A stretch of DNA of 64,000 bases from Nannochloropsis oceanica (Eukaryota > Sar > Eustigmatophyceae > Eustigmatales > Monodopsidaceae), in contig CP038106.1 of the NCBI GenBank assembly GCA_004519485.1, positions 879,501 through 943,500 of the forward strand, given 5' to 3'. Both the position numbers and the translations under genes were made by a program. The notes beneath the pieces are model-generated. The model saw only the letters and a program-made list of their open reading frames with translations, had not been told where the DNA came from and did no database searches. Of this stretch, positions 15,224-24,575 are shown one piece after another; the first letter of the stretch is position 1; each line of letters opens with the position of its first letter.

Positions 15224-16219
15224 CTACTTGAATACACCCCTTTCATCAAATCCTCCCTCGCCCCAATTATCTGCTATGTATTGTTGGAATTGGCGCAACG
15301 CCAAACTGCGGTGAGAAATGGCATTCTTCTCATTGACCGTCATCTTCGAGAAAGTGGTGGTGAACCCAGAAGGACGAAAGCAAGTATCCCATCCAAACCC
15401 GTTGTCGTCCTCTTCCGGGAGAACAATTTCGCCGTATGTGATACCAGTAAAAATTACGGGCTGCTGCCCTGGACCGGGAGAAAACCCGACGTTGCAGATG
15501 GCCCTGGCGGAGCGGTCTTCGTAAGCTTCCACCATCTGGGGGAGGTACAGGAGGAGGGAAGGTAGATCATGTGGGTCAACCTCTCCTCCACGAATACATG
15601 TTGAAAAGCATACCTTAAACAATCCCGCGCTTCCCAACTCATCCAAGAAGTGCTTGATGTATGGTCCTGGTAACCCGCCGAGTGCGTTGAGGCACAACGA
15701 GGTGTCCTCTACAAGGCATGGCGCCTGTACGTGTCAAAGGGAAGGGACAGGTAAGAAGTGACTTACTGGAAGGAAGCAGAAGTGAGTTGGTGGCGAGGAA
15801 ATGAAAAAGCTTACCTTTACTCTGTTTGAGGCTAGCCGAGTCTTTTCAATTGCAATCACCAGCGGAGACTCTTGCAGCTCAGGCAGCTGTATATCAAGAG
15901 TCTGAATGTCGAAGGGCACTCGAAGACCTCCTTCCGCCAATAGGGCTTGCACTTCACGCGTTTTAAGAGGATTGCTCGTAATGAATTTTATAACTGCCCT
16001 TTTTTGACTGTAGCTGGCTGCCGTAGGCGTTGAGCATGCCAGTGTGCTTCCAGGAACGTGGGTGGCACTTGCGATTATGGTGTGGCCGGAAAGAGAGGAA
16101 GAAAGTGTGCATCTGGCGGGAACGGGTCGAACAAATGCCCAAGAAGGTGCAATTACGCAGAATGAAAGCAGCACCACTGGTGCCAACGCCCGTGGGATGC
16201 CTTGCGCCCCCCCCATCAT
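15224..16219 (-). CDS. ITP/XTP pyrophosphatase (HAM1), plastid-targeted
   Basis: Hydrolyses ITP, dITP and XTP to the monophosphates, keeping deaminated purines out of nucleic acids. Exons 16219-15815, 15724-15614 and 15535-15224 join in phase 0 to about 275 residues. The core has KFITSNPLKTREVQALL (the substrate-loop SNP..K motif), LVEDTSLCLNALGGLPGPYIK, FSPGPGQQPVIFTG, GFGWDTCF and NAISHRSLALRQF, all standard for ITPA. An extra N-terminus of about 70 residues begins with two Met codons and a hydrophobic signal peptide ending PSWAFVRPVPAR. The Ala-Phe junction with a basic/Ser-rich stretch after it is the heterokont plastid signal. I therefore infer a plastid form; a cytosolic paralog would be expected elsewhere. 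Confidence 0.92.
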
Positions 16220-16452
16220 TGCGGTCAGGACAGAATTCTCTCAAGTGATGTTGCTCAGCTGAGAAATTCACCGCCGCTGCTCACAGGCTGTCTTCTCGAG
16301 AAAATGAAAAGGGAAGCAAGGTTAGACCGTGGTATTGTTTTCTTTGCACGCCTTCCCAGGAGAGCGCAGCAATACAAGCCACGCAAACCGGCTACCGAGG
16401 GGCGGAATAATGTGTCACGGAATTGAGCACCGTGGTAGGCGGGGGGGGGGGG

Positions 16453-17346
16453 CTTCAAATCACACGTTGGACGACTACCAATATTCCTTAGTCAGTCGTT
16501 AGTCGTCCTGTCCTGCGATTGTGCATGACTATTAGTCGTCACACTCCAATGATTATGGATGACTATTAGTCGTCATAGTCGTCGGAGATCGAAATGATGC
16601 ACGACTACGACGACTATTAGTCGTCGGAGATCAAAATGATGCACGACTACGACGACTATTGGTCGTCGACTCCTTGCGACGACTTTTAGTTTTATATTAG
16701 ATATTAGTATTAGTCTATTAGTCTTAGATCTTAGATCTTAGGATCTTACTTATAGTCTTGCGTAGTCATAGTTCTTTTGAGCGTGAACGTGATCCTACAT
16801 CTCTCTAGAACTATCGCATGCAACCTGACGTCTTCGAGGACTTGCATACGAGGGGGAGCCTTCCAACAAGAAATTGTTGTCATCCCTTATTCCTCGTCCG
16901 AGTTTTTCTAGCGACTTTGATAGGTTTTTCGACCTGGCAAAGTCCCCGGACGGCCCACGCAGGGCCAGGAGGAGAAGGGGAAGGAGGATAAAAGAGGAGG
17001 TCAGCGGGAACGCTACACATAGAGTGTCCGCACATCTTGCCGCGGTTGCGTAGTCGTAGGCCGACGAAGAATACGAATGAATGCGACGACTACTAGTCGT
17101 CGCTCGCGGAAAATCTGGACGACTGCGACGACTAATAGTCGTCGCTTGATGATTTATGCACGACTACGACGACTAATAGTCGTCGCTTGATGGAAATCAT
17201 GCACGAGTACGACGACTACTACTCGTCCTCGATGGAAATCATGCACGACTATGAATAATCACATGATTATCGACGACTATTGACGACTATCGTAATAGTC
17301 AGTCGTACAGGCCATTTTTGGAGAATAATCGTCCAACGTGTTGAAG
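16453..17346. mobile_element. Palindrome-rich 0.9-kb element (copy A)
   Basis: Both ends carry an imperfect inverted repeat of about 25 bp: CTTCAAATCACACGTTGGAC at the left and the reverse complement of CTTCAACACGTTGGACGA at the right. Inside each end are arrays of near-perfect palindromes of the form CGACGACTANTAGTCGTCG, joined by ATGCACGACTA spacers. The middle, 16771-17047, is a 277-bp core that recurs at 20586-20854 and, diverged, at 47948. The core is flanked by GCGTAGTCATA (16760-16770) and GCGTAGTCGTA (17048-17058). No target-site duplication is clear and no transposase is encoded. The structure resembles a non-autonomous foldback or MITE-type DNA element, but I cannot place it in a superfamily. 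Confidence 0.75.
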
Positions 17347-17686
17347 GCCTTATCGCTTGTCACAAGGACATGAGACAAAATTACCAGATATGTCATGAAG
17401 GAGGACGATGCGATCAGAAACGGTCATGACAGTGCTCGGCAAGATGAGAAAAAGCGAAAACCCATGTTTTTACATCAATCCATGAACTTAGTGACCAAGG
17501 GGTAGTCCTCTGTGTGACAGCTTCTCACATGGCTGACCGATCCGCCCCCTTCAAGCTCAAGCATCGTAAAGCCCCCAAACACCCGGCCATAAATATCGAT
17601 TTGCGATAGAATAAAGGGAGCTTTTAATTTGCTTTCTGAATTTTTACTTTACCATCGCTTTGCCAACCCTATTTCAATTATCGCCG
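17347..17686. other. Intergenic, nothing recognised
   Basis: Unique-looking sequence between the palindromic element and the next minus-strand coding-like region. No gene, RNA or repeat is apparent. Confidence 0.35.
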
Positions 17687-18639
17687 CTAGCTGGCCGGAC
17701 CCGCGCCCCCCCCTCCGACCGCCGCTTCCCCCACGAAGCACCTGCCCCTCCCTCCCCTTCGTCCTCCCCCCTCTGCTTCCCCCTCATCTTCCTCCTCATC
17801 TTCCTCCCCTTCTTCTTCCTCTCCCTCATCTTCCACCTCCACAACTTCCACAGGTGCCGCTGCGCCGGGCATTCCTTGCTCCGATCCCCTGCCCTTGCCG
17901 TTCCCTCTCGGCTTGGACTTGCGCGGCTTGTGCTGCCCGCCGATGGAGTAGTACTTGGCAAGAGCCGCCTTGCTCTCCCACACAACCTCCTCCAGGCAGA
18001 ATGACAATTGCGCGCCCTGCTTGTTGCCCTTCGCCTTGAGGATGGTTCGCATCTGTGTCAGCTTCCCCTCAACCTGCGCCGGAGTGTCCTCCCCCAGATC
18101 GTAGAACTTCCCACCCCGCTTTTCCGAAGACATGAGCTTTTGCAACTCTACCACCACAGGCCACCTACGCCGCCGCCACTCCTGGCCCCGGTCGGACACA
18201 GGGAGGGCATGGTCGTTCTGGAGCAGGTGGGGGATGATGTTGTACTTCCAGATCGTCTCCCCGTCTGCGGGTGATGGTTCGCCTTCTTATCGATAGCCGA
18301 ACCGTCCAGTAGCATCATCCACTGCCCCCCATAACTTTCCTTCCACTCCATCTTCCCATCCTGGATGGGCTTCAGCAGACCAGCGCGGAGGTTGGCTGTC
18401 GCTGCCTTCTTCACGTCCTCCGCGTAGTCACAATTGCCAGTGTAGATGATGGGCAAGAAGGCGGCTACCTCCCTCACCTTTCGGATGAGACGTGGAAATT
18501 GTGCTGCCGCAGCTGCACACGCCCAGTGAGACCTTCCAGGTTGGTGCTGTGGTCTCCAAGAGCTTCACGGCACGTGCCCCGATTCCCTCAATATCTTCTC
18601 CAATGCCAATAATTTGCAAACGCCACCACATCCTTTTGA
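17687..18639 (-). pseudogene. Unrecognised coding-like region, looks broken
   Basis: Minus-strand coding potential covers about 0.95 kb but is spread over more than one reading frame, and no single frame spans it. Translated stretches have protein-like composition, for example FLPIIYTGNCDYAEDVKKAA and AQLSFCLEEVVWESKAALAK, and the C-terminal end turns acidic (runs of Glu) then Gly-rich. I do not recognise a family. It lies between a mobile element and the KH gene, so it may be a decayed member of a repeated or mobile gene family, or a host gene with introns I could not place. No function is proposed. Confidence 0.35.
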
Positions 18640-19126
18640 CGCCGACTCCACCTCAATGAACTGCGCCTCGAGGTGCAAGGCTCTTCCTCCCCATCTCTCT
18701 CACCTCCCTAACTCCCCTGCCTGCTTGTTTTTCTGTCCTTCTTCCCCCCCTTAATACCACGCGTTCTTCCTTTAGTGTGCACCACATATTACTGCTCAGC
18801 GACTAGCGGGGCCGCAAAGACAATGTTATCGTTGTTGTATTCATGGTTGTCGAGACGTCATCTTCACTAGGACCTTAAGTGGTTTACGGCCTTGAGATTA
18901 CTTCACCTATTATACGTAAAGCAAAGTAATGATAGTAGTCAAGTAGATTTCGAAGGAAAATATGGATGTCACGTTTTGGGTCGTATAATTACTTTATCAG
19001 TCGCTTCTTTCCAAAAATCAAAAATCTACATTCATCAATACATCACGCGGACGGCGCAGGCGTTGAATTACAACTTCCTGTATCGCCGATAAGGGCACCA
19101 TCACATTTGGGCCTGTTGCTCTTCTC
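18640..19126. other. Intergenic, nothing recognised
   Basis: About 490 bp downstream of the KH-domain gene with no supported feature. Confidence 0.35.
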
Positions 19127-20461
19127 TCATCCGCGTTTGTTCAATCTCGACCCTCCTCCATCGCTGCTCTTCCAAGCAACCCTACCTATCCCTCCCTTCG
19201 ATTTGGAACGGCCTCCATTACCGCTTTGGAAAGCGGGAAATTCGATTTTAAGCCGTGCGATCGCCTCGAGGAGCGATGCTTGGCCTTCTCCTACTTCTCG
19301 CAACGCCCCCACGGCTGCCAGGACGGCCTTCTCGTCAGCACCTGTCACACAAATCTTGATCAAATTCCCCTCTCGTTCTCCTTGCTGACCTGTCTGGGGG
19401 CTTAACGATATGAATTCTGAGTCTGCCTCGTCCCCTCCATCATTGTCAACAACAGCGCTACCAGGCGAGACGGACGACGTAATTTGAACCCTCGGTCCTC
19501 CTCCCTCTCCGCCTCCTTCCTCGTACCCCCCTTCTTCCGCCTCTTTGTCCTTGGGTTGCGACTTGTCCATAAATACTTGTTCCTCAGCCTCTGGCACCGT
19601 GCCGTTCTCCTTTTCCCGCGGCTTGGATTCCTTCTTGATCCGCGTACCTGTGTGTTTACTTATCAAAACAATTGCAGCACTGGTGCTGCCTTTCGTCAAA
19701 ATATCAAGTTGACTAATAGACACAGGAATTATCTCCTCTATAATTGAGGTTGGTGCCCCTTTACTAGTGATTGGGTAAGCCGCAGCAATCGGTGTCGTTG
19801 CTTCATCTACCATGGCCACTTGGCCATCAGACTCGCCTTCTCTGTCTCCGCCCGCATTGCTGCTGCTCCGATATCCTCCTCCACTATATGCCGCATCAAC
19901 CACCTCCACCACTGCTTTTAAAACGGCGTCAACCTCGCCTTCCAGCTGCACGTAATTGCTTTCTTTGTCCTTCCAACCCGGTATGTAAATGCGCACGTTT
20001 GTGTCCGCGCTTATGCGACGTAGATTGGCGCTGCTCTTCCCGATGACTTGGACCAGACGGCTTTTAAACAGGGGAAACTGGGCGATGCAATCGTCTAGCT
20101 CTTCCACGAGTCCCGCGATCATGCGGGCCGCCGTGAAGCACCCCGAGGGTTTGCCTCGGACACTGACGAGAGACCAGGCTGAGTCGGTGACGTCCTCCGT
20201 TGGCTCCACGCTCACGCGGGCCCTGCTGGCGTCTTGAATGTATTTGATCTTTGCCCCCTTCTTCCCAATCACTAAACCCACCTGCTCAATGGGTACATAC
20301 AACGATAGCGTGCAGCTGTCCCTGAGGTGCAGGTCGGCCGATCGGAAGAAGTCGAGAGATAGTTTGCTTTGTGCGCCGTTGGGCAAAGGAGTGCCTCGTC
20401 CACGACTTTCGCGACCGTGAACGTGACCGTGACCGCCTCGCCAGTCCGCCTGAGATGCCAT
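19127..20461 (-). CDS. KH-domain RNA-binding protein
   Basis: Intronless frame of 444 residues with an ATG at 20461. Residues 1-30 are rich in His, Arg and Gly. The first KH domain spans about 50-115 and has an intact GXXG loop (VGLVIGKKGAKIKYIQ, GKKG at 66-69). A second KH-like unit follows directly (LVQVIGKSSANLRRISADTN), with GKSS in the loop position. A third degenerate unit near residue 250 reads LDILTKGSTSAAIVLISKHT. Between and after these are acidic/Gly-rich linkers, and the last 30 residues are basic. The protein presumably binds single-stranded RNA or DNA; which step of RNA metabolism is unknown. The promoter side carries the 2.8-kb mobile element whose left end is only about 125 bp upstream of the start. 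Confidence 0.8.
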   Translation of the reverse strand: MASQADWRGGHGHVHGRESRGRGTPLPNGAQSKLSLDFFRSADLHLRDSCTLSLYVPIEQVGLVIGKKGAKIKYIQDASRARVSVEPTEDVTDSAWSLVSVRGKPSGCFTAARMIAGLVEELDDCIAQFPLFKSRLVQVIGKSSANLRRISADTNVRIYIPGWKDKESNYVQLEGEVDAVLKAVVEVVDAAYSGGGYRSSSNAGGDREGESDGQVAMVDEATTPIAAAYPITSKGAPTSIIEEIIPVSISQLDILTKGSTSAAIVLISKHTGTRIKKESKPREKENGTVPEAEEQVFMDKSQPKDKEAEEGGYEEGGGEGGGPRVQITSSVSPGSAVVDNDGGDEADSEFISLSPQTGQQGEREGNLIKICVTGADEKAVLAAVGALREVGEGQASLLEAIARLKIEFPAFQSGNGGRSKSKGGIGRVAWKSSDGGGSRLNKRG

Positions 20462-21330
20462 GGCTTTGCTAGGGCTATACTGCCGCCTGCTGTGTAGATT
20501 GGTTGGAAAGACAAAAAAATATATAAACCAATAATAATATATTAATAAACGAAAAACGAAAAAACGAAAAAAAACAGACGACGTAGTTCTTTTGAGCGTT
20601 CCTACATCTCTCTAGAACTATCGCATGCAACCTGACGTCTTCGAGGACTTGCATACGAGGGGGAGCCTTCCAACAAGAAATTGTTGTCATCCCTTATTCC
20701 TCGTCCGAGTTTTTCTAGCGACTTTGATAGGTTTTTCGACCTGGCAAAGTCCCCGGACGGCCCACACAGGGCCAGGAGGAGAAGGGGGAGGAAGATAAAA
20801 GAGGAGGTCAGCGGGAAGGCTACACATAGAGTGTCCGCACATCTTGCCGCGGTTGACCAAACCGAAGATCATGGGGACGAGCTTCTCCACGGACCATTCT
20901 CCTGTACACCCGTAGGATATTACGTGCCCCATTGCCGTCCCGAGACACGAACTGTTCACAGGTGTTACATCAATACAGTCCTCGGATGGCCCGCCCATGA
21001 CCTCCTCCTCTGCCTCGTCCTCGTCCTCCTCCGCCTCCGCCTCGTTCTTCTCCGCCTCCTTCTCCTCTAATTCCTCCGCCTCCACCCCCTCCTCCTCCTC
21101 CGCCTCCTCCTCCGCCTCCTCCGCCTCCGCCTCCTCCGCCTCCGCCTCCTCCGCCTCCGCCTCCTCCTCGTCCTCCTTCTCGTCCTCCTCCTCGTCCTCC
21201 CCCTCCTCCTCCTCCTCCTCCTCCTCCTCCTCCTCCTCCTCCTCCTCCTTCCCCTCCTCCTCCTTCCCCTCCTCCTCCTCCTCCACCACCTCCTCCTCCA
21301 CCTCCTTCACCTCCCCCTCCTCCCCCTCGT

Positions 21331-22966
21331 CGGCGCGCCCTCACTATCTTTCTCTTTCCCTTCTCCATTCCTCCAGCAAGTGCCGCACGAATTCTACCAA
21401 TGGTTGCCAGTGCTCGTGCTGCCTGTTCTCTGGGTAAAGAGAGTATAGTGGGGATTCCTCTCATTCCCTCTCCTCCTCCTCCTGTTGCCGCTCCGGCCGC
21501 CCCGACTCCTCCCACTCCTACCCTTCCAGGATCCCCTCCTGTATCCATCCTGCTATCCCTTCCCCCTCCTCCTCCTCCTCCTGCAGCTGCCCGGGCTCGT
21601 GCTTCAGCAAGTGCCATCTGTATGGTCAGCCGCCTCTGGGCGGCTGCTGCTGCTTCCGCAGCCCGGGTTCTTTTCCCTCTTCTTCCTCCCCCTCCCCTTC
21701 CTCCCCCTCCTCCTCCTCCTTCCCCTCCCCCTCCTTCCCCTCCTCCTCCTCCTCCTCCTTCCCCTCCTCCCTCTCCTCCTCCTCCTCCTTTCCCTCCTCC
21801 TTCTCGTCCTCCTCCTCGTCCTCCCCCTCCTCCTCGTCCTCCTTCTCAACCTCCTGCTCCTCCCCCCCCTCCTCCTCCTTCTCCTCCTCCTCCTCCTCCT
21901 CCTCCTCCTTCCCCTCCTCCTCCTTCCCCTCCTCCTCCTCCTCCACCACCTCCTCCTTCCCCTCCTCCTCCTCCACCACCTCCTCCTCCACCTCCCTCAC
22001 CTCCCCCTCTTCCCCCTCGTCGGCGCGCCCTCACTATCTTTCTCTTTCCCTTCTCCATTCCTCCAGCAAGTGCCGCACGAATTCTACCAATGGTTGCCAG
22101 TGCTCGTGCTGCCTGTTCTCTGGGTAAAGAGAGTATAGTGGGGATTCCTCTCATTCCCTCTCCTCCTCCTCCTGTTGCCGCTCCGGCCGCCCCGACTCCT
22201 CCCACTCCTACCCTTCCAGGATCCCCTCCTGTATCCATCCTGCTATCCCTTCCCCCTCCTCCTCCTCCTCCTGCAGCTGCCCGGGCTCGTGCTTCAGCAA
22301 GTGCCATCTGTATGGTCAGCCGCCTCTGGGCGGCTGCTGCTGCTTCCGCAGCCCGGGTTCTTTTCCCTCTTCTTCCTCCCCCTCCCCTTCCTCCCCCTCC
22401 TCCTCCTCCTTCCCCTCCCCCTCCTTCCCCTCCTCCTCCTCCTCCTCCTTCCCCTCCTCCCTCTCCTCCTCCTCCTCCTTTCCCTCCTCCTTCTCGTCCT
22501 CCTCCTCGTCCTCCCCCTCCTCCTCGTCCTCCTTCTCAACCTCCTGCTCCTCCCCCCCCTCCTCCTCCTTCTCCTCCTCCTCCTCCTCCTCCTCCTTCCC
22601 CTCCTCCTCCTTCCCCTCCTCCTCCTCCTCCACCACCTCCTCCTTCCCCTCCTCCTCCTCCACCACCTCCTCCTCCACCTCCCTCACCTCCCCCTCTTCC
22701 CCCTCGTCGGCGCGCCCTCACTATCTTTCTCTTTCCCTTCTCCATTCCTCCAGCAAGTGCCGCACGAATTCTACCAATGGTTGCCAGTGCTCGTGCTGCC
22801 TGTTCTCTGGGTAAAGAGAGTATAGTGGGGATTCCTCTCATTCCCTCTCCTCCTCCTCCTGTTGCCGCTCCGGCCGCCCCGACTCCTCCCACTCCTACCC
22901 TTCCAGGATCCCCTCCTGTATCCATCCTGCTATCCCTTCCCCCTCCTCCTCCTCCTCCTGCAGCTG
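21331..22966. repeat. 690-bp tandem repeat, about 2.4 copies
   Basis: The unit starts at CGGCGCGCCC at 21331, 22021 and 22708, so the periods are 690 and 687 bp; the third copy breaks off at 22966. Copies are nearly identical, differing mainly in the length of a CCT-rich microsatellite. Both periods are multiples of three. The lower strand would be Gly/Glu-rich, the upper strand Pro/Ser-rich. Confidence 0.93.
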
Positions 22967-23259
22967 GTGGCCACCTCATGCCTCAAGGGTCCGCCTTGCA
23001 TATCCTCGCTTGTCGTCAGCAAGAGCAAGTTATTTCTGACTTTGAAGAGTTGAGTGCCTCGCCGCTGATGGTGGGGGACACATATTTGTCCGGTTGCGAA
23101 TGGTGGAGCGCGAAAAACTACCGTTGGGCATTGGCGCAGATCCACAGTCGATTCGTGAGTGTCGCAAGAGAGCCAGGGGAGCCTCCACGAAAGGCAATGG
23201 CTAATAGTCGTCGCTTGATGATTTATGCACGACTACGACGACTACTAGTCGTCGCTTGA
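21400..23259 (+). CDS. Open frame with SPPPP repeats inside element B
   Basis: A 619-codon frame runs unbroken through all copies of the 690-bp repeat and into the unique tail. Each unit gives a block beginning MVASARAACSLGKESIVG, followed by long Pro runs broken by single Ser, as in hydroxyproline-rich cell-wall proteins. The last 100 residues are different and look more protein-like (SGCEWWSAKNYRWALAQIHS). There is no signal peptide at the frame's start. A CCT microsatellite opens long frames on its own, so the frame may be fortuitous; against that, the tandem periods preserve it. Expression is unknown and I assign no function. Confidence 0.25.
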   Translation: MVASARAACSLGKESIVGIPLIPSPPPPVAAPAAPTPPTPTLPGSPPVSILLSLPPPPPPPAAARARASASAICMVSRLWAAAAASAARVLFPLLPPPPLPPPPPPPSPPPPSPPPPPPPSPPPSPPPPPFPPPSRPPPRPPPPPRPPSQPPAPPPPPPPSPPPPPPPPPSPPPPSPPPPPPPPPPSPPPPPPPPPPPPSPPPLPPRRRALTIFLFPFSIPPASAARILPMVASARAACSLGKESIVGIPLIPSPPPPVAAPAAPTPPTPTLPGSPPVSILLSLPPPPPPPAAARARASASAICMVSRLWAAAAASAARVLFPLLPPPPLPPPPPPPSPPPPSPPPPPPPSPPPSPPPPPFPPPSRPPPRPPPPPRPPSQPPAPPPPPPPSPPPPPPPPSPPPPSPPPPPPPPPPSPPPPPPPPPPPPSPPPLPPRRRALTIFLFPFSIPPASAARILPMVASARAACSLGKESIVGIPLIPSPPPPVAAPAAPTPPTPTLPGSPPVSILLSLPPPPPPPAAGGHLMPQGSALHILACRQQEQVISDFEELSASPLMVGDTYLSGCEWWSAKNYRWALAQIHSRFVSVAREPGEPPRKAMANSRRLMIYARLRRLLVVA

Positions 23260-23660
23260 TGGAAATCATGCACGACTACGAATAATCACATGATAATCGA
23301 CGACTATTGACGACTATCGTAATAGTCAGTCGTACAGGCCATTTTTGGAGACGTAGGTGTGGAAAGAACTGTAAAAGAGGTGAACAATGATGATGGGGCG
23401 GCGGACTGTCCAGCCACCGGTCATGAAATTACCACCGAAAGTGTAAACTGGTGTATGGCGTGGCTACCTCCCGTTCCATGGCCGTCTTGGTGAACTAAAT
23501 TAATATAATGCTCCAATGCTCCTCCTCTCCTCTGCTCTGCTCCTCTCCTCTCCTCTCCTCTCCTTCTCTCCTCCTTCATGTATGATCCTCATTTCGCCCC
23601 TCGCCGACTCCACGGAGAATGTCGTCGTCGTCAACCTCTCACGAGACACTATACCAAATC

Positions 23661-24575
23661 ATGCACGCATGCATGCGCCTACACACAGGGATGGTTTCTG
23701 GGGGGCACTGTCTGGCGTTTGCCTTGCGTCTTCCACACGGTGCCAGCATCTTGGCTCGATCTCAAGGGGTGGTGATGGGGATAGAACGCCGGTCACCTTT
23801 TGGAGGCCGCCGCATGTTGTCTACGGAGGCAAGTACTCAAGCAGCCGCTCATGCACCGTCCAAAGGTACATGAGAATGATACGAAGGAAAGGGGAAAGTG
23901 GAGGGGGCGGGGGGGAAGAGTGCAGGCTGGCCTTTGTGCGCGATGAAGAGGAGGGACAGAACGCAGGCCAGGGTCTTGATGTTGCCAGGCATGGAACCTG
24001 ACGAATCAAAAAAGTGCCATCTTACCCTGCCCTCCGAAACATTTGGCATTTCAAACAGGTTCTTCGCTCCTTCAGCGGTTATCCTCCTTCCTGGCTGGCG
24101 TGGGCGTGACGTCCTTGGTGGGCTACTATTTTCTCGTCCAGGATGTGAAGCGGTACGTGTTGGGAACGGACGAAGCTCAGCTCTGCTAGTGTCTGGTATT
24201 TGATATCATCCGAAAATATTGGTGACACTCGGTTTACCAACTACATCTCCTTGCTGGTGGCCACCTCATGCCTCGCTCCTACATCGGCTGCTCGGAGATG
24301 CAAGGGGAAAGAACATCTGGCCGAGAGGGCTCTCTTTTGGGATCAGGACCTTTTATTTATTATTCAATTTCTGGTTTTCGAACGGGGTACTTTTTTATGC
24401 GCTCCCTTTTGTCGTACCTACTTATCATATTGAAACTGTTCTCCCATTCTGACCTAATCGGCTCCTTTCCATTCTTATCTTCCTGCATTACGTCAAATAC
24501 AGGTCGACCGAGTCGGTACAAGCGGGCATGAGCGACATCACAAAGAGACTGGAGGCGCTGGAGAAGAGCAAATAA
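23661..24575 (+). CDS. Small mitochondrial single-span protein, three exons
   Basis: Exons 23661-23865, 24059-24152 and 24503-24575 join at GT-AG sites in frame to about 123 residues (137 if the ATG at 23619 is used). The N-terminus is rich in Arg, Ser, Ala and His without acids (MHACMRLHTGMVSGG..., RRMLSTEAS), which fits a mitochondrial presequence. The second exon encodes one hydrophobic span, SFLAGVGVTSLVGYYFLVQD, and the third a short amphipathic helix ending TKRLEALEKSK. Two introns separating such small exons make the gene easy to miss. I do not recognise the family; size and layout resemble small inner-membrane subunits of respiratory or cristae complexes, but that is inference. The upstream repeat element ends about 300 bp before the start. 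Confidence 0.68.

Follow-up and report, generated by a model that had tools for sequence, protein, structure and literature searches.

The element at positions 16461–17342 (882 bp, left end to right end on the forward strand) of the 64,000-nt stretch of Nannochloropsis oceanica DNA analysed here, hereafter the window, is very probably a non-autonomous deletion derivative of a hAT-superfamily transposon, dead or dependent on functions supplied in trans, that later received the 3ʹ end of a Fanzor1-bearing element. As a transposon it is of a known kind; the architecture of its ends is unusual, and it carries a fragment of a second mobile element. A sequence-only reading of the region had proposed a palindrome array with inverted ends and a bracketed core, and motif, repeat and genome searches recovered all three. 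The extent given there, 16453–17346, holds the element, whose ends lie slightly inside it; the core, described as 277 bp, is 279 bp long with limits 16769–17047. The proposal that this is a mobile element is borne out by ends common to many copies and by longer relatives with transposase sequence. A merely local repeat, the outcome that the same reading held against mobility, would have palindromes found only here or copies that never share their ends, whereas the palindrome has 28 sites in the genome and the ends recur.

The limits 16461 and 17342 were placed by the tips of copies that have 8-bp target duplications. An inverted-end search and comparison with other copies identified the left terminal repeat, CACACGTTGGACGACTA (16461–16477, forward strand), and the right one, the reverse complement AACACGTTGGACGATTA (17326–17342, reverse strand). 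These 17-nt repeats are identical at 15 positions, with two mismatches, and are also found in other copies; the inverted ends at 16462–16477 and 17326–17341 are complementary at 15 of 16 positions. The tips of the family are CACACGTTGGACGAC, and the last base of the window copy is T, not G. At its junctions (16453–16458 and 17341–17346) we observed CTTCAA and TTGAAG, an inverted 6-mer in place of a target duplication. The window copy encodes no transposase sequence.

All searches of the organism's own genome covered 29,264,788 bases in 32 contigs (29.3 Mb). With the whole feature as query there were 43 matches: the element itself, two matches of one arm to the other, and 40 core matches confined to query positions 302–596 or less, a number to be read as at least 40, with 40 of 241 first-look candidates scored. 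The right arm alone matched at least 55 genome rows, 49 of them at E < 1e-20 (40 of 56 candidates scored), and the left arm at least 59, part of which are merely palindrome cross-matches to right arms (40 of 51 candidates scored). Because the core and arm searches return different sets of matches, core and palindrome arms represent separate repeat families. Left and right arm matches pair in the genome at distances of 0.2 to 5.6 kb. Megablast against phage records gave no near match to the element, and nothing in window positions 15800–24000 reached the gathering score of an Rfam family.

A search of the window for the palindrome CGACGACTANTAGTCGTCG, allowing up to three mismatches, gave 10 matches, against a shuffle mean of 0.01. 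Seven are non-overlapping sites in the element, located by motif search: three in a left array (16557–16668; sites 16557–16575, 16608–16626 and 16650–16668) and four in a right array (17084–17228; sites 17084–17102, 17126–17144, 17167–17185 and 17210–17228). Both arrays have a 42-bp tandem period; the spacing inside the arms is 41–43 bp, with a first step of 51 bp. Of the remaining three, one is a shifted overlap and two lie near 23.2 kb. There, window positions 23201–23351 hold a right-arm fragment of the same family, which matches the window element at 93% identity along 151 bp and lacks the tip. With one mismatch allowed, the palindrome occurs at 28 places in the genome (control, 0), and 27 of these, on several contigs, lie inside arm matches, a comparison that used 49 right-arm rows and 16 of the 59 left-arm rows. 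The palindrome is made of paired copies of ACGACTA, which is also part of the terminal repeat. ACGACTA or its complement is present 22 times in the ~600 nt of arms, 14 times in the ~63,100 nt outside the element (a stretch that takes in the additional arm fragment around 23.2 kb), and is absent from the core. Among other copies it forms clusters at both ends only in C6a, C6b, C28 and C20f, and C20a has an extra internal cluster.

What is the functional significance of these palindromes? The sequence-only reading had offered protein-binding sites and hairpins as the two possibilities, and the comparison of copies favours the first. In 14 aligned right arms the palindrome halves are mostly retained and the centre is variable. 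If the palindromes were kept for hairpins or cruciforms in single-stranded DNA, as in a foldback-like or rolling-circle element, changes on one side would be compensated on the other. Both sides changed in one of 25 pairs (0.8 in shuffles), and the covariation score of the right arms is 0.069, against 0.073 for shuffles. A looser count over 132 sites, which includes shifted overlaps and is biased low by its mismatch limit, gave five compensated changes, and shuffles gave 15. Because the palindromes lack an excess of compensatory changes, there is no support for selection on hairpins. The right array does fold as DNA far better than its shuffles (z -6.83), which is true of any perfect palindrome array, and one element end, on C12, adjoins a palindrome with 8-bp arms. 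Taken together, we consider the hairpin explanation unlikely. A variable centre, retained halves and no compensatory excess fit paired protein half-sites better.

Our best reading, by analogy with Hermes and Tol2, is that the palindromes are subterminal sites bound by the transposase. Excerpts of one study (PMC10368747) describe two BED domains of Hermes that cooperatively bind a quasi-palindrome made of subterminal repeats, and, in Tol2, a palindrome that follows the terminal repeat. The N. oceanica family resembles both systems in its hAT dimerisation region and, as those excerpts present them, in having subterminal repeats, some of which are palindromic near the tip (PMC10368747). It differs in that each arm, left and right, holds three or four 19-bp palindromes ~42 bp apart, and in its motif, GACGACTA. 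No such array is described in the titles and abstract openings of the papers listed by literature searches on palindromes or subterminal repeats at hAT ends.

The sequence-only reading could name no superfamily for the element, a conclusion overturned by relatives with 8-bp target duplications and a hAT dimerisation domain. Judged from these sequence comparisons, the arms are hAT-superfamily ends. Of 18 hand-picked end pairs, eight have flanking 8-bp sequences, just beyond the tips, that differ at no more than one position; these correspond to five independent sites once duplicated segments (C17=C18, C20c=C20c2, and C6c and C6d, whose flanks are near-identical) are removed from the count. The other 10 pairs have no 8-bp duplication. 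The window copy is one of these, its flanks CTTCAAAT and GAAGGCCT differing at seven positions, and the search for target-site duplications recommended earlier thus succeeded for the family and failed for this copy. Short inverted ends and 8-bp duplications are likewise features of Hermes and Tol2.

Longer relatives with both ends as in the window element have transposase sequence in between. Four of the 18 end pairs are long copies of this kind (C6a, C6b, C28 and C20a), and a target duplication, which is perfect, is present in C6a only. Their ORFs run on the strand opposite to the left-to-right direction. The C6a ORF, which lies between the ends, matches the Pfam family Dimer_Tnp_hAT with 34.8 bits (E 1.4e-8; curated cut-off 21.4); the longest transposase ORF, that of C20a (P0001, 624 aa), scores 21.2 bits, marginally under the cut-off. 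Six database relatives of the transposase were found, and all four that were scanned exceed the cut-off. An ORF of the family is identical to NocV09_04600020 [Nannochloropsis oceanica] over 93% of the ORF. A phmmer search of the PDB gave a weak Hermes match (E 0.0011) covering residues 467–528 only. A C..C..H..H-like stretch was seen by eye in P0004 and P0006, and Pfam gave no BED finger match in the ORFs or database relatives scanned. The AlphaFold model of relative P0004 (pLDDT 36.7) was unusable. The genome has 43 transposase-matching pieces, many with stops, and none is in the window. The terminal consensus of hAT elements is YARNG; the CACAC tip agrees with it at positions 1 and 2 only, plus the free position 4.

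Derivatives that keep both ends and have lost the transposase region are a recognised class of MITE-like hAT elements. The window element is the same in both respects, and differs by its nested Fanzor-element end and by having no target duplication. The earlier idea that an internal segment had been lost therefore holds in one sense, since, in comparison with the long copies, the arms no longer enclose a transposase region; that loss is a separate event from the insertion of the core.

Could the arms instead come from a different cut-and-paste superfamily that has subterminal arrays, such as CACTA/EnSpm? The element ends start with CAC, and subterminal repeats are typical of CACTA elements. 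However, the target duplications of CACTA elements are 2–3 bp, whereas those of this family are 8 bp, and the transposase between the family's ends has the hAT dimerisation domain. We regard a CACTA origin as very unlikely, even though in one annotation, as given in an excerpt of PMC10943562, CMC-EnSpm accounts for ~60% of TEs in N. oceanica. No CACTA transposase was recognised by eye in nine translated stretches, and four ORFs were domain-scanned.

Several other observations concern the hAT family. A copy at C12:371919-372164 has ATGAGACG on both sides, and the left one is followed by its own inverse, ATGAGACGTCTCAT, and then by the tip. This inverse resembles a hairpin-opening scar, and C28 looks similar by eye. 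Across the family, palindromic scars with arms of at least 5 adjoin element ends in 5 of 42 flanks, against 4.7% of random windows, a weak difference that is not significant. By eye, left and right hAT ends surround an unrelated methyltransferase-like ORF at C8:1106649-1110828, and helicase-like pieces resembling Helitron sequence at C10:27271-30302; capture and nested insertion are both possible. At C20:711716-725508, tandem copies of ~5,270 bp carry hAT fragments whose positions recur at 713216, 718490 and 723760.

We propose that transposase made elsewhere would bind the many GACGACTA half-sites through an N-terminal zinc finger. One half-site lies in or near each terminal repeat, and the rest are mostly head-to-head pairs at ~42-bp intervals. 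The transposase would assemble on the array as an oligomer and cut at the CACACG tips. In a later event, the 3ʹ end of a Fanzor1-bearing element, in the opposite orientation, entered one of the right-arm palindromes with duplication of 8 to 14 bp. The Fanzor gene is reduced in this piece to its end, and beyond it the piece retains just the 3ʹ noncoding region, which in other Fanzor systems is the source of the guide RNA and is a candidate for that role here.

The core (16769–17047, reverse strand) is a Fanzor1-bearing repeat truncated to its 3ʹ portion, and its fixed 3ʹ end, ..CTCAAAAGAACTA, lies at 16769; this assignment draws on at least 40 other copies, on alignments, on the ORF of a long copy and on the fold of a relative. 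When a copy at window position 20584 was used as query, 31 of 41 other matches shared a starting point, the TAG of TAGTTCTTTTGAG, to within 4 nt; three extend further and seven begin later (40 of 188 candidates scored). The far end of the copies is variable. A long copy on C4, read in the reverse direction, contains a 450-aa ORF whose stop is shared with the core. Read by eye against this ORF, the window retains the last 10 Fanzor codons, PRQDVRTLYV, and the stop (17013–17045, reverse strand).

We aligned the C4 ORF with 11 of its 23 database relatives. Invariant in the 12 sequences are TDG at 100–102, D157PG, TT at 317–318, C324, C402 and C405 (CxxC), and RD at 411–412; at the first position of the finger most rows have H, and P0028 has C. 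Excerpts from the literature give the Fanzor/TnpB motif as D-X(125,275)-[TS][TS]xx-[C4 finger]-X-RD (PMC3627910), and name DPG and TDG as Fanzor signatures (PMC10711439). As judged by sequence on the long copy and those 11 relatives, the parent element of the core carries the Fanzor1 motif. PF07282 scores 13 bits (E 0.12) on the C4 ORF, in which the finger is split by a Gly-rich expansion, and is precomputed in four of the 23 relatives (P0009, P0011, P0012 and P0028). Fold comparison was made on the relative P0009, which is 47% identical over 83% of the N. oceanica ORF; in a Foldseek search with the P0009 model (pLDDT 77.3), ranks 1 to 7 are Fanzor structures (E 2.7e-18 to 2.1e-15). A sequence search of the PDB with the Fanzor ORF gave 75 matches (E up to 10), mostly on the Gly-rich stretch and with a best E of 0.0017, and no Fanzor is among the 60 listed. 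The ORF was scored at 94 places in the genome, 72 of which reach the C-terminal residues 446–450. Among 11 long copies, divergence at codon positions 1, 2 and 3 is 0.036, 0.020 and 0.104. In viral contigs nine stretches fit a pattern, and none proved related to the Fanzor alignment by tblastn.

Other features of the core family were seen in passing. Window positions 20584–22965 hold a longer copy, in which the C-terminal codons adjoin a Gly/Glu-rich expansion on the minus strand, with ~690-bp tandem units; visual inspection showed the same expansion in copies from C27 and C9. At L063 (C15) and at C11:850057-850758, pairs of copies have their fixed 3ʹ ends facing each other, with matches 6 to 10 bp apart. 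Many copies, by eye, have a simple-sequence tract ~10–15 nt past the fixed end, which suggests a target preference or a by-product of repair.

A repeat search found 14-nt direct repeats, identical at 13 positions, on the two sides of the core: TTGCGTAGTCATAG (16758–16771, forward strand), whose final TAG is also the fixed end of the core, and TTGCGTAGTCGTAG (17046–17059, forward strand). Between the broken palindrome and the core lie ~67 bp (16691–16757) of A+T-rich, imperfect short repeats (TTAGAT/TATTAGTC), read from the sequence. They are missing at the equivalent point of the relatives compared, and are apparently a local expansion. In the relative at C20:792285 the site of the core is uninterrupted, ..CTTTTAGTCGTGTGTAGTCGTAGGCCG.., and about two bases differ from this in C6b, C20a and C20:731072; C14, C28 and C6a are more altered just ahead of the empty site. 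The window copy reads ..CTTATAGTCTTGCGTAGTCATAG [core] GGTTGCGTAGTCGTAGGCCG.. at the same point. Since relatives are uninterrupted where the window copy is split by the core, the target was duplicated over 8 to 14 bp, a range that arises because the ends of the core match the target by chance. The contiguous empty sites agree with the original suggestion that the core had been inserted into the array with a duplication.

The fixed 3ʹ end, the 5ʹ truncation and the long direct repeat are retroposon-like, and a 5ʹ-truncated LINE or SINE was our own early working idea for the core, encouraged also by simple repeats beside many copies. We dropped it when long copies were found to read Fanzor. The fold of a relative agrees, and a search of the genome for RVT_1 gave two matches, both under the cut-off, so that a retroposon origin seems highly improbable. 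The same pattern is known in DNA elements: the Chlamydomonas Fanzor1/Helitron2 families CRe-1,2,3, in an excerpt of Bao and Jurka (PMC3627910), have intact 3ʹ ends, 5ʹ truncation and 7–19-bp duplications. The core family shares their bias towards intact 3ʹ ends and 5ʹ truncation, and the duplication in the window lies within their range. Among nine copies tested, however, several with uncertain far ends, flanking direct repeats were found in the window copy alone and nothing comparable in the other eight; the best repeats elsewhere, in C4 and C28, are exact over 7 bp and do not adjoin the fixed end. A table from Bao and Jurka 2013, as excerpted (PMC3627910), has one N. oceanica (NOc) family, apparently in the Fanzor1 column, and we set the core family beside it on the basis of this listing. 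Helitrons are described as the commonest recognisable elements of N. oceanica CCMP1779 in the part of PMC3499364 cited here.

It is most improbable that the palindromes have no tie to mobility and serve the host as transcription-factor or chromatin sites, or form a local satellite: a mechanical ORF list has a reverse-strand ORF that starts at 16219, with the element ~240 bp upstream of it, but the palindrome sites lie almost entirely in element arms on several contigs, and their motif is also in the terminal repeats.

Published Fanzors, according to excerpts of PMC10432273 and PMC10711439, use an omegaRNA from the element end with a guide from the flank. The 244 nt of 3ʹ noncoding sequence in the core (16769–17012, reverse strand) is a candidate omegaRNA scaffold on the basis of its fold, conserved blocks and stem counts. 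RNA folding of 16769–17014 gives z -3.18 against shuffles. Divergence of the noncoding part among the 11 long copies is 0.056, with two blocks at 0.018 and 0.028 and four others at 0.063 to 0.087. In a MAFFT alignment of 16 copies (10 diverged and six close), a 10-bp stem (16842–16851 with 16814–16823) is paired in 149 of 160 cells, a count reached by 13 of 300 shuffles. Two of its pairs changed on both sides (reached by 62 of 300 shuffles), including A-T to G-C in four sequences. A second stem is weaker (30 of 300 shuffles), three further stems had no support over shuffles in the 16 copies, and among 14 close copies none of 76 pairs was compensated. These data are suggestive of a conserved, structured omegaRNA scaffold. 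The arrangement of this candidate is like that of the SpuFz1, GtFz1 and SfAV Fanzor omegaRNA/reRNA loci, which in the excerpts cited have a structured noncoding region from the Fanzor stop to the element end and a guide expected in the flank (PMC10432273, PMC10711439). It differs from those loci in that the window gene is cut to 10 codons and covariation support is modest.

We also considered that the core is a working stand-alone omegaRNA gene, and that scattered 3ʹ ends serve the long Fanzor ORFs in trans. This seems decidedly unlikely. If true, one-ended copying would scatter at least 40 Fanzor 3ʹ ends, each of which would gain a new guide from the DNA beside its landing site. The guide of this copy would come from the array on which the transposase of a rival hAT element docks, and an RNA-guided nuclease would be aimed at the ends of another transposon. 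By manual count, the first 20 nt past the fixed end have four differences from the nearest empty site, C20:792285; therefore, the window copy as a guide locus would target that relative poorly.

The biological interest of the element lies in both of its parts. In the hAT family each end is a long array of palindromic sites, which makes it a clear case in which to study how hAT transposases acting as oligomers locate their termini. The other part belongs to a Fanzor family that has many members and conserved 3ʹ noncoding ends. Its host is a small alga that can be transformed, and the idea of scattered guides acting in trans would be testable there.
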